From JBGPLH01 sp041486365 [NCBI: Thermodesulfobacteriota bacterium] (GTDB lineage: Bacteria; JAUYMQ01), in NCBI GenBank assembly GCA_041486365.1, contig JBGPLH010000247.1, positions 1-5,279 of the forward strand: a stretch of DNA of 5,279 bases. Reading direction: 5' to 3'. Every line of letters starts with the position of its first letter. Position 1 is the first letter of the stretch. A program made the translations under genes and the position numbers. The notes beneath the pieces are model-generated. The model had not been told where the DNA came from, searched no databases, and saw nothing but the letters and a program-made list of their open reading frames with translations. This document shows positions 1 to 2,493 of the stretch, one piece after another.

Positions 1-1324
1 CCAGCGTTCGCGCGATGGTGCCGGCCGGCGTGCCGGTGGCGAGGAGGATCGCGCCTCCGACGATTGCCGCGGCGCAGGCGGCGAGGAAGGGGCGGCTGAG
101 CGCCGACCGGGCGCGCTCCACGGCGGTGACGCCCATGCCGCTGAGGACGGCGAGCGCCAGTCCCGTGAGCAGCGCGAAGCGGTTAGGGTTCCTGAACCAG
201 GCCCCGCTGGGCAGCGCGTGGTAGAGGTCGTAGAGCGGCGTGCGCACGCCCAGGCTGAGCGCCGCCGCGAGGATGGCTCCCGCGAGGATCGCTCCCGCGA
301 TGAACGGCCGGCCGCCGAAGAGGGCGGCGGCCGCGAGCAGCGGCGGGAGGATCCCGAAGTAGAAGGCCGGCGTCTCTCGCGCGCGCAGCGACCAGAGCCG
401 CGCGAGGGCGTCGGCGGTGCCGCGCCCCTCGCCCGCGTCCCCAGCACTCGCCGGGACCGCCGGGGACGCCACGCCGGGCGCCGCGGCGGGTGGGACGCCC
501 AGCGCCGGCAGGATCGGATTGTCCGCCCAGCGCAGCGAGAGCGCTCCCGGCGCCCGCGCCGTGCGCTCGGCCAGGGCCAGCGACGGGAGGATCTGGGGCG
601 CCGCGAGCGCCGCCGCCGTGGCCGCGCCCAGCGCGAGCCAGAGCATCGCCCCGACCGTGGCCCGCGCGCCGAGGATCCGTCCCGTCCGGAAGAGGCGCGC
701 CGCCGCGAAGAGGGCCAGCGCGTAGGCGCCGTACACGAAGACCTGCAGGCCGCCCGCCAGGAGCGACATCGCTCCGCCCAGGGCGAGGAGGGCCGCCCCG
801 CGCGCCCCACGGCCCTGACAGGCGCGCTCGATCCCGAGGCCCATGAGCGGGATCCATGCGGCGCTCGCCACGAAGCACAGGGGCCCGTAGAACCACACGG
901 CGTTCTGCGTGAAGGCGAAGGTGATCGCGGCCGCGCCCGAAGCGGCGCGCGACCACCGCCAGGCCCGCGCGAGCAGGAACATGAAGGCCGCCGCCAGGAA
1001 CGTGTGCAGCGCCGCCGTCATTCCCAGGGCCACGCCGGTCGGGAGCAGCAGGAAGAGGAAGTTCCCGGGATAGAGGATGCCCGTGTACAGCGTGGCCAGG
1101 AAGGGGATCCCGCAGTAGGTCCAGGGGTTCCAGAGCGGAATCCGACCCTGCGCCAGCTCCCCGAAGCCGTAGTGGTACATGGGGAACATGAGCGTGTAGA
1201 AGTCGATCTGGAAGAGCCCCTCGCGCTCGACGCCGGGTGCGATCACGCGGGACTGCCAGAACAGGAGGGCGGCCGCCGCCAGGCCGAGGAGGACGAGCGC
1301 GTCGCCCCGGGCACGCGGGCTCAT
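1..1324 (-). CDS. YfhO-like polytopic membrane protein, probable GT-C-type glycosyltransferase (C-terminus cut by window edge)
   Basis: The frame is open from the ATG at 1324 to the left edge, giving 441 residues without a stop, so the C-terminus is missing. It is strongly hydrophobic: a first helix at about 9-25, then helices near 101-118, 131-165, 173-210, 220-250, 318-356 and beyond 383. YfhO-family signatures are visible: an Asp in the first outer loop (D41, in FQIDFY), PLWNPW at 63-68, a GIPF...YPGN stretch at about 72-88, APQILPS at 242-248 and WFRNPNRF at 376-383. Family knowledge: Bacillus YfhO is a GT-C enzyme that moves a sugar from a polyprenyl-phosphate donor to lipoteichoic acid outside the membrane. 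That role here, and D41 as catalytic base, are inferences. The start has only a weak GGGG ribosome site 7 bases upstream. It follows the DUF2304 gene by 37 bases. An Ala/Pro/Gly-rich loop at about 278-302 is unusual. Family assignment is fairly sure; donor and acceptor are unknown. Confidence 0.85.
   Translation of the reverse strand, partial: MSPRARGDALVLLGLAAAALLFWQSRVIAPGVEREGLFQIDFYTLMFPMYHYGFGELAQGRIPLWNPWTYCGIPFLATLYTGILYPGNFLFLLLPTGVALGMTAALHTFLAAAFMFLLARAWRWSRAASGAAAITFAFTQNAVWFYGPLCFVASAAWIPLMGLGIERACQGRGARGAALLALGGAMSLLAGGLQVFVYGAYALALFAAARLFRTGRILGARATVGAMLWLALGAATAAALAAPQILPSLALAERTARAPGALSLRWADNPILPALGVPPAAAPGVASPAVPASAGDAGEGRGTADALARLWSLRARETPAFYFGILPPLLAAAALFGGRPFIAGAILAGAILAAALSLGVRTPLYDLYHALPSGAWFRNPNRFALLTGLALAVLSGMGVTAVERARSALSRPFLAACAAAIVGGAILLATGTPAGTIARTL
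266..295 (-). repeat. Two-copy 15-base tandem repeat inside the YfhO-like gene
   Basis: Bases 266-280 and 281-295 match at 14 of 15 positions, and the first five bases of the unit recur at 296-300. The unit is a multiple of three and encodes GAILA twice (residues 344-353) within a transmembrane helix. It is probably a small in-frame duplication that the hydrophobic helix tolerates. No regulatory role is implied. Confidence 0.6.
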
Positions 1325-1365
1325 CGCAGCGCCCCGGCGCGGGGGCCGATCGGGCGGGGTGTCAC
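1321..1365 (-). other. Possible 14-codon bridging ORF between DUF2304 and YfhO-like genes
   Basis: A GTG at 1365-1363 overlaps the DUF2304 stop as GTGA. Its frame runs 14 sense codons (MTPRPIGPRAGALR) to a TGA at 1323-1321, which overlaps the ATG of the YfhO-like gene as ATGA. It therefore spans the whole gap between the two genes. It could let ribosomes finishing DUF2304 restart twice and reach the membrane-protein start, which has only a weak ribosome site. A chance frame in GC-rich DNA is equally possible, and the peptide resembles nothing known to me. Confidence 0.2.
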
Positions 1366-1730
1366 GGCCGGCCGATCTCCCCGGCCGGGCGCGTCTCCTC
1401 GACGCGCAGCTTCAGGAGGGCCAGCTCCTGCGCCAGCTCCTTCACCTGGTTGTTCAGCTCGCTGATCCGGATGGAGTAGAAGAGGCTCACGACGACGAGG
1501 AACACGAGGCCGGCAAAGAAGAGGATGTTCACCGGCAGCACGCCCCCGAGCAGCCGCGTGATCGCGAGGAGCGGCGCGTCCCAGGCGGAGATCACCAGGA
1601 GCGCGCCGGCGATCAGGAGCCAGAGGAACGAGTACTCCTCCCGCAGGCGACGCGAGCGCACGGCGTTCAGCACGAAGATCGCCAGTGACGCGGCGATCCC
1701 GATGGAGACGAACCGGAGCCTAGGATCCAT
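1362..1730 (-). CDS. DUF2304 family small membrane protein
   Basis: This 122-residue protein matches the DUF2304 family in length, layout and the REEYSFLWLL motif (30-39) after the first helix. Three membrane segments are visible at about 7-24, 34-50 and 66-86, with the basic SRRLR linker at 26-30. A clean heptad helix follows: hydrophobic a/d positions I89, L92, V96, L99, L103, L106 and V110, so the tail is probably a cytosolic coiled coil. The family has no settled function that I know of, but is often encoded beside DPM-type glycosyltransferases, as here. The ATG at 1730 is well supported: AGGAGGT lies 8 bases upstream, inside the preceding gene, which it overlaps by 11 bases. Likely roles are anchor or scaffold for the upstream soluble glycosyltransferase, or part of lipid-linked sugar translocation. 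Both are inferences. The family call is confident. Confidence 0.88.
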   Translation of the reverse strand: MDPRLRFVSIGIAASLAIFVLNAVRSRRLREEYSFLWLLIAGALLVISAWDAPLLAITRLLGGVLPVNILFFAGLVFLVVVSLFYSIRISELNNQVKELAQELALLKLRVEETRPAGEIGRP

Positions 1731-2493
1731 GGCGTTCCACCTCCTCCGGCCGGGGGCGCCGCCGGAGCAGCGTCACGAAGATCGACAGACACATCTTGAA
1801 CACGTAGTACACGGGCGTGATGCCGCTGTGGATCGATCGACCACTCGGATCCTCGCGGAAGAGGGCGGGCACCTCGACCATGCGCAGGCCCGCCCGATGG
1901 GCGGTCACCAGGAGATCCGCGTCGGGAAAGGTCTGTGGGTACCAGTTGGTGCAGAACAGGCGCACCGCCCGATCGTTCATCGCGCGGTACCCGGAGGTCG
2001 TGTCGGTGATGCGCTGCCCGGTGAGCAACGTGGCCACGGCGGAGAACAGGACCATGCCGAGCCGCCGGTCCAAGGGCGCGGGGTAGCGCACCCCGTCCCG
2101 GTGCGGACGGAAGCGCGTGCCGATCACGAAGTCGGCCTCGCCCCGATCGATGGGCCCGAAGAGATCGGCGATCGATGCGGGGTCGTGCTGGCCGTCGCCG
2201 TCCACCGTGACCACGCGCCGGTAGCCCCGCGCGCGGGCGTACTTGAAGCCCGTCTGGCGCGCGGCGCCGTCGCCGAGGTTGATCGGGTGGGTGACCACGT
2301 GGGCGCCCGCCCCCAGGGCGGCGGCGCGGGTCCCGTCCCGTGAGCAGTCGTCCACCACGAGGACGTCGAGCCCGGGCGCGTGCCGGCGCACCTCGGCGAC
2401 GACGTCGCCCACGCTCTCCGCCTCGTTCCAGGCGGGGATCACGACGAGCCCTGATTCCTCCGGACGCCCGGCCATCCCGCCCCCTCGGCTCAT
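1720..2493 (-). CDS. Family-2 glycosyltransferase, dolichyl/polyprenyl-phosphate sugar synthase (DPM1-like) type
   Basis: The 257-residue protein has a single GT-A domain of the DPM/DPG-synthase-like group. Visible landmarks are VVIPAWNEAESV (17-28), VLVVDDCSRDGT (44-55), the metal-binding DGDGQHDP (98-105, D98 and D100), FVIGTRF (122-128), and TDTTSGYRAMN (163-173), the family's D-x-x-SG-[FY]-R signature. The family moves a sugar from a nucleotide donor to polyprenyl phosphate at the cytoplasmic membrane face. The sugar here cannot be read. There is no pair of C-terminal transmembrane helices as in GtrB/CsbB; only a modest hydrophobic helix at about 224-243, so membrane attachment probably needs a partner, plausibly DUF2304 next door. 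The ATG at 2493 overlaps the previous stop as ATGA. A second in-frame ATG at 2475 has a better placed GAGGGG and would shorten the protein by six residues. Family is confident; exact start and substrate are not. Confidence 0.92.
   Translation of the reverse strand: MSRGGGMAGRPEESGLVVIPAWNEAESVGDVVAEVRRHAPGLDVLVVDDCSRDGTRAAALGAGAHVVTHPINLGDGAARQTGFKYARARGYRRVVTVDGDGQHDPASIADLFGPIDRGEADFVIGTRFRPHRDGVRYPAPLDRRLGMVLFSAVATLLTGQRITDTTSGYRAMNDRAVRLFCTNWYPQTFPDADLLVTAHRAGLRMVEVPALFREDPSGRSIHSGITPVYYVFKMCLSIFVTLLRRRPRPEEVERHGS
1739..1745 (-). promoter_or_regulatory. Strong ribosome binding site for the DUF2304 gene
   Basis: The minus strand reads AGGAGGT, the full anti-Shine-Dalgarno complement, 8 bases before the ATG at 1730. 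It lies within the last codons of the upstream glycosyltransferase gene. It is the best ribosome site in the window, so DUF2304 can probably be translated independently of its upstream partner, and it fixes the start codon. Confidence 0.8.
2480..2486 (-). promoter_or_regulatory. Candidate ribosome site favouring the internal ATG at 2475
   Basis: The minus strand reads GAGGGGG, with its GAGG core 7 bases before the ATG at 2475. The alternative ATG at 2493 has GAAGGA directly against it with no spacer, a poor position, but it is coupled to the preceding stop by ATGA. The site therefore leaves two credible starts for the DPM1-like gene, differing by six residues outside the catalytic fold. Confidence 0.35.

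Follow-up and report, generated by a model that had tools for sequence, protein, structure and literature searches.

A predicted membrane glycosylation system is encoded within a 5,279-nucleotide stretch of contig JBGPLH010000247.1 (assembly GCA_041486365.1) from the Thermodesulfobacteriota bacterium JBGPLH01 sp041486365, and this whole stretch is referred to below as the window. Three adjoining minus-strand genes form the core of the system: a DPM1/PpgS-like glycosyltransferase (GT) of the GT-A type (P0001, 257 aa, 1720..2493), a small membrane protein of the DUF2304 family (P0002, 122 aa, 1362..1730), and a YfhO-like GT-C transferase of which the N-terminal 441 aa are present (P0003, 1324..2, open at the window edge). 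We propose, with a probability of about 0.7, that the GT-A enzyme and DUF2304 charge polyprenyl phosphate with a sugar, that a domain of the LPG_synthase_TM type flips the product, and that the YfhO-like GT-C domain transfers the sugar to a surface acceptor. The proposal was built from sequence families, structure models and comparison with published systems. Protein families, gene order, the GT-C fold of a complete YfhO-like relative (P0007), the helix layout of DUF2304 and the linkage of the genes were what we observed in the sequences and models.

Gene order in the window and its nearest relative

The original prediction, made from the window alone, had listed these three genes in this order, with an 11-base overlap between the GT-A and DUF2304 open reading frames (ORFs) and a 37-base gap between the DUF2304 and YfhO-like ORFs (1325-1361); all of this proved exact, with every gene on the minus strand. 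The best of the homologous loci, L001, lies in a Deltaproteobacteria metagenome-assembled genome (MAG; Myxococcota according to the tree tool), and its GT-A protein is 73% identical to P0001. Window and L001 have in common the order GT2, methyltransferase, GT2, GT-A, DUF2304, YfhO-like, and the 11-base overlap is identical, so the gene order of the window is not a product of chance. The YfhO-like gene of L001 is complete (P0007, L001:3891-7235, 1114 aa); P0003 is 56.5% identical to P0007 over a 414-column alignment spanning window residues 22-434.

The predicted charging step

P0001 matched PF00535 (1.5e-24), and its translation carries the DxD-type motif DGDGQHD. Its best NCBIfam match was PpgS (NF058614) at 119.5 bits against a cut-off of 370, and it is therefore related to PpgS without being that equivalog. 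Matches in the PDB were glucosyl-3-phosphoglycerate synthase (1.3e-6), DPMS (1e-5), and undecaprenyl-phosphate 4-formamido-arabinose transferase (1.4e-5). From its sequence, P0001 is predicted to be a polyprenyl-phosphate sugar synthase. A protein of 933 aa (L078:3955-6753, plus strand) also ends in a GT-A domain, and its first ~680 residues had no Pfam match at E 0.01.

P0002 matched PF10066 (7e-23; 81.4 bits, cut-off 25.5) and contains three hydrophobic segments. DUF2304 proteins constitute the GacJ/EpaJ/WpsB family (PMC8327497), and GacJ-like proteins are described as partners that boost the activity of GT-A enzymes (PMC8327497, PMC10821137, PMC8035078). WpsB increases WpsA activity and is considered to form a complex with WpsA; its structure is described as a helical hairpin with one short and one long helix (PMC10821137). 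The AlphaFold2 model of P0002 (76 rows; predicted local distance difference test score (pLDDT) 79.9, predicted template modeling score 0.54) placed helices at 3-25, 31-49, 51-61, and 67-113, which is the arrangement published for WpsB, with a hairpin, then a short helix and then a long one. A natural fusion of an N-terminal DUF2304 domain to a GT-A (GT2) domain was found in an Anaerolineales genome (L112:47-1081, minus strand), and such fusions are reported from other organisms, with an engineered WpsBA fusion being active (PMC10821137); a complex of the GT-A enzyme with DUF2304 fits both. Since the published partner role, the helix layout of P0002 and the natural fusion agree, DUF2304 probably belongs to the charging step as a helper of the GT-A enzyme and is not a flippase.

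Neighbourhoods were surveyed in the best 80 of 425 confirmed relatives, picked by similarity to P0001, so that the pairing rate is no census; several loci end at contig ends. DUF2304 lay directly downstream of GT-A and co-directional in 72 of the 80 loci, adjacent but divergent in two, and one gene away in four, which places it beside GT-A or one gene away in 78/80; a contig end intervened in one locus, and DUF2304 was not found in one. PF10066 was present in 78 of the 80 genomes, with 88 copies in total, and these copies served as the reference for the neighbour counts below, whose Poisson values treat clade members as independent although the tree shows that they are not.

The original prediction had cast DUF2304 in the position of GtrA, as flippase of a three-component system. 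We retained the multi-component system but not this equivalence. The small size of P0002 and its three hydrophobic segments would suit a flippase, and GtrA (PF04138) had no match among the six window proteins and none (0) in the L001 MAG, which is possibly incomplete. Against this stand the published role in GT-A activation, the existence of the DUF2304-GT-A fusion, and the Pfam search at E 0.001, in which P0002 matched PF10066 only and not PF04138. GtrA was moreover found within 5 kb of 4/88 DUF2304 copies (0.36 expected), within 500 bases in genomes G008 and G022 and within 5 kb in G041 and G036, which shows that the two families can stand side by side; two clostridial loci have the order GT-A, DUF2304, GtrA with both small membrane proteins adjoining (L008:3632-4465 and G022:C58:28615-29365). 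A GtrA flippase alongside DUF2304 is thus seen but is not routine. DUF2304 as flippase was rejected on its published activating role and its co-occurrence with GtrA, and we hold a replacement of GtrA by DUF2304 to be very improbable.

Other searches with the family returned little. Foldseek with the P0002 model gave nothing at E 0.001 (best E 1.5), a result that speaks neither for nor against any family. The PDB sequence search with the DUF2304 profile gave no match at E 0.1, and phage records no relative of P0002; in the literature searched, no paper mentioned COG2456, PF10066 or pfam10066. Copies of DUF2304 lay inside 348-aa frames in G044, G047, and G069. Among control genomes, Methanocaldococcus jannaschii has a DUF2304 match above the cut-off, and the GT-A/DUF2304 pair may thus reach archaeal lipid-phosphate sugar systems.

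The YfhO-like transferase

The P0003 fragment alone had no Pfam match at E 0.001. P0007 scored 35.3 bits against YfhO (PF09586; cut-off 28.5) over the whole protein, through two short stretches (best, residues 730-778) each of which taken singly fell below the cut-off in the genome profile search. The YfhO label of P0003 thus rests on its relative P0007, on a profile of its kin, and on the fold, and not on a Pfam match of its own. The P0007 model (27 rows) had a mean pLDDT of 66.6, with residues 40-810 mostly at 70-97 and loops below 50. Foldseek matched it to AftD (1.0e-9) and ArnT (7.6e-7), and VIA-align to AftD (Z 19.9; 589 aligned, root-mean-square deviation 5.6), STT3 (Z 19.4), PglB (Z 15.4), and ArnT (Z 15.4), the GT-C structure matches covering residues 1-627 or 6-795. 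As modelled, P0007 has a GT-C fold, like enzymes that use lipid-linked sugars. With AftD and ArnT among its structural matches, the expectation of a polyprenyl-phosphate sugar system with a charging GT-A enzyme and a YfhO-like GT-C transferase held up.

Conservation among YfhO-like proteins was counted in P0007 plus 32 of 43 profile hits (length cut; L001, L081, and L109 excluded). Asp41, PLWNP and Gly72 are conserved among these kin and are all present in P0003; Asp41 occurs in 91% of the 33 aligned rows. Sequence searches of the PDB at E 1 gave no match for P0003 or P0007, and no relative of P0007 was found among viral contigs. Elsewhere, a YfhO-like protein with a C-terminal GT2 domain (residues 947-1108) was encoded at L111:382-3924 (minus strand) in genome G078, where DUF2304 was searched for and not found. 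At L051:5666-6634 (plus strand), the YfhO-like gene that follows GT-A and DUF2304 is split over two frames near the contig end, through sequencing error or decay.

The original prediction had also expected YfhO-like genes beside DUF2304 above chance. By Pfam matches, YfhO was found within 2 kb of 1/88 DUF2304 copies (0.34 expected), within 5 kb of 2/88 (0.74), and within 10 kb of 7/88 (1.41). Some genes enter these YfhO figures repeatedly because their match came in pieces, and, for YfhO as for LPG_synthase_TM, the sites on DUF2304-bearing contigs were selected by eye. The expectation accordingly failed at the two shorter distances and was borne out at 10 kb and by direct adjacency, since our own profile placed YfhO-like genes directly next to the pair in 3/80 loci (L001, L051, and L070); the regions for that profile survey were chosen for YfhO or LPG_synthase_TM matches and are no census. 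L001 and L051 keep the order of the window, whereas L070 has two YfhO-like genes just upstream of the pair. The linkage of YfhO with DUF2304 is therefore real but rare, and not a general cassette. The low counts at 2 kb and 5 kb are what one would expect if the YfhO-like gene had no tie to the pair and lay there by coincidence, in a region rich in sugar-related genes. We consider such chance juxtaposition highly unlikely, because the three loci with direct adjacency occupy three different positions in the drawn tree and force at least two changes, because YfhO occurs at 10 kb well beyond expectation, and because of the YfhO-GT2 fusion in L111 and the gene order conserved in L001.

The proposed flipping step

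Residues 813-1091 of P0007 matched LPG_synthase_TM (PF03706; 1.3e-13, 51.5 bits, cut-off 33.4), a family predicted to comprise flippases of lipids or lipid-linked saccharides (Makarova et al., PMC5898192). P0003 ends short of this region, the gene being cut by the window edge; by homology with P0007, we infer the same C-terminal domain for the full-length product of this gene. LPG_synthase_TM was found within 5 kb of at least 6/88 DUF2304 copies (0.99 expected), at least four of them within 500 bases (0.18 expected). Four actinobacterial loci, L058:4553-8560, L075:4592-8508, L080:4041-7839, and L037:4610-6696, carry an LPG_synthase_TM gene between DUF2304 and GT-A, and the ORFs overlap. In L105, 9 bases separate a YfhO gene from the LPG_synthase_TM gene after it, and the DUF2304 gene of that genome is on another contig. 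The best foreign match of the P0007 LPG domain in 50 genomes was the operonic copy of G058 (4e-7); a dedicated subfamily for this domain is only weakly supported.

Several points weigh against the proposed mechanism. A single genome shows the fusion of YfhO to LPG_synthase_TM, and the window stops short of the region concerned. The four LPG_synthase_TM operons group together as a single clade of the GT tree (100/100) and thus represent one event beside the L001 fusion, so that independent linkages are few. Operonic copies, of which four are present, supplied only two of the eight foreign matches of the P0007 LPG domain, and this domain is 21-25% identical to the four operonic proteins. The LPG part of the P0007 model mostly has a pLDDT below 50. 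MAFFT misplaced the LPG rows and bridging fusions were no help, so this domain had no alignment rows in the prediction and its model is poor; no LPG-type fold appeared among the structure-search rows of P0007, which mostly cover the N-terminal region. On the side of the transferase, a published alignment of YfhO proteins has no conserved DXD motif (PMC5836110), and Asp41 is for that reason a candidate catalytic residue at most. Finally, the L001 genome (G001) has four Wzx-type genes outside the cassette, any of which could flip the lipid-linked sugar.

This last point carries an alternative, in which a Wzx-type protein encoded elsewhere flips and the YfhO-fused LPG_synthase_TM domain serves another lipid. 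Wzx (PF01943) is widespread, being found in 48 of the 50 genomes searched and within 5 kb of at least six DUF2304 copies (distances read by eye), and the flippases GacK and WpsG are of the Wzx type (PMC10821137, PMC8035078). Yet none of the four G001 genes lies on the cassette contig C334, whereas LPG_synthase_TM is fused and operon-linked to parts of the system. We therefore regard this alternative as rather unlikely and favour flipping by LPG_synthase_TM. The literature found on YfhO and flippases, a limited text collection, did not name LPG_synthase_TM. GpgF of Pseudomonas aeruginosa is another flippase known by prediction only (PMC12713373).

Other genes of the window and its relatives

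All recognised genes of the window lie on the minus strand. The GT-A gene overlaps by 4 bases a GT2 glycosyltransferase gene (P0004, 2490..3551, PF00535 4.3e-35), beyond which lie a class I S-adenosylmethionine methyltransferase gene (P0005, 3628..4425, PF13489 3.6e-21) and a second GT2 gene (P0006, 4425..5279, PF00535 5.6e-18) that is cut at the window edge. The GC content of the window is 67-79%; many long plus-strand ORFs, antisense to these genes, are by-products of it.

These neighbours suggest that P0001 may initiate an oligosaccharide instead of making a one-sugar decoration, with the GT2 enzymes P0004 and P0006 extending it in the cytoplasm, P0005 adding a methyl cap, Wzx or LPG_synthase_TM flipping it, and the YfhO-like GT-C enzyme transferring it. 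A precedent exists in Lactococcus lactis, where WpsC extends the N-acetylglucosamine (GlcNAc)-P-C55 made by WpsA/WpsB (PMC10821137). P0004-type GT2 genes (>150 bits) were near GT-A in 9/80 loci, and in L001, L003, and L071 they lie immediately upstream of it. After GT-A, L058 and L075 have a methyltransferase-family gene with a GT2 gene, the P0004-type GT2 recurring in L058, L075, and L080. Such a GT2 is however absent from the other 71 loci over the stretches covered, and GT genes are common in such neighbourhoods. On the lactococcal precedent and the GT2 and methyltransferase neighbours, extension of the lipid-linked sugar before flipping is a serious possibility, though at somewhat less than even odds, and it is compatible with our proposal.

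The genes next to the pair were called with a simple script. The neighbour set comprised 92 genes downstream and 97 upstream; from the latter, L076:2-3751 was then dropped (96 rows). Multi-pass proteins were the next gene for 16/54 visible downstream neighbours (L001 included) and for 7/55 upstream, three of the latter seven being LPG_synthase_TM genes. The DUF2304 alignment comprised 75 of the 78 DUF2304 relatives, with L042, L080, and L066 left out. In L001 a sulfatase-family gene (7261-8766, minus strand) converges on the cassette, and beyond it lies a gene (8684-9427, minus strand) that is cut by the locus end and encodes six hydrophobic segments without a Pfam match.

Comparison with known systems

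GacI/GacJ of Streptococcus pyogenes (with GacK and GacL), WpsA/WpsB of L. lactis, and EpaI/EpaJ resemble the window in that a GT-A gene is followed by a DUF2304 gene, and also in the GT-C transferase of the scheme and the DUF2304 helix layout. They differ in the transferase, which is GacL (with a PMT-2 domain) or WpsJ instead of a YfhO-like protein, and in the flippase, which is Wzx-type (GacK, WpsG) where the relative of the window has an LPG_synthase_TM domain (PMC8035078, PMC10821137); the nearest genome here is also that of a Deltaproteobacteria MAG.

The family model that P0001 matched best, though far below its cut-off, belongs to the PpgS (Rv3631)/Rv3632/Rv3779 system. We take Rv3632 to be a DUF2304 protein, the PF10066 match being confirmed only for Corynebacterium glutamicum. 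To our knowledge, the transferase of this system is not YfhO-like. Like the window, the system, which adds galactosamine to arabinogalactan, combines a GT2 polyprenyl-phosphate sugar synthase, a small membrane partner and a separate transferase (PMC9671496, PMC3485146).

Lipoteichoic acid glycosylation by CsbB/GtcA/YfhO likewise joins a GT-A enzyme to a YfhO-family GT-C transferase (PMC8035078, PMC5836110), but with the GtrA-family protein GtcA where the window has DUF2304, and LPG_synthase_TM does not figure in the scheme as published. AglD and other COG0392 predicted flippases, and MprF, resemble P0007 in that PF03706 is fused to an enzyme making or using a lipid-linked group, the partner being a GT-A domain in AglD, an aminoacyl transferase in MprF, and a GT-C domain in P0007 (PMC5898192). 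CsbB also differs from P0001 in having membrane helices of its own.

Discussion

In the mechanism that we propose, P0001, held at the membrane and activated by P0002, would act on the cytoplasmic side, transferring a sugar from a nucleotide sugar to polyprenyl phosphate. The lipid-linked sugar might first be lengthened by P0004 and methylated by P0005. Flipping would most likely be carried out by the LPG_synthase_TM domain, which is C-terminal in the YfhO-like protein of L001, and the YfhO-like GT-C domain would then transfer the sugar outside to a putative surface acceptor. The enzymatic activity, the sugar, the flipping and the acceptor are what we infer here.

The GacI/GacJ-type pair itself is already known, whereas a YfhO-like GT-C transferase fused to a flippase-type domain beside such a pair, as in L001, is new with respect to the literature searched. 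We tentatively suggest, as an idea with the odds against it, that one polypeptide both flips and transfers, YfhO GT-C being joined to LPG_synthase_TM, and that LPG_synthase_TM proteins, along with GtrA and Wzx, would belong to a set of interchangeable flippases on which GacI/GacJ-type pairs draw. They would then also be candidates in systems whose flippase is still being sought. In arabinogalactan modification, for example, flipping has been ascribed to unidentified factors (PMC9671496), and for several glycosylation systems it is not settled which protein takes polyprenyl phosphates bearing a single sugar across the membrane. Our findings speak against DUF2304 as a stand-in for GtrA. A fusion of GT-C to a flippase-type domain beside DUF2304 and GT-A would make a compact system whose charging, flipping and transfer steps could be taken apart domain by domain.

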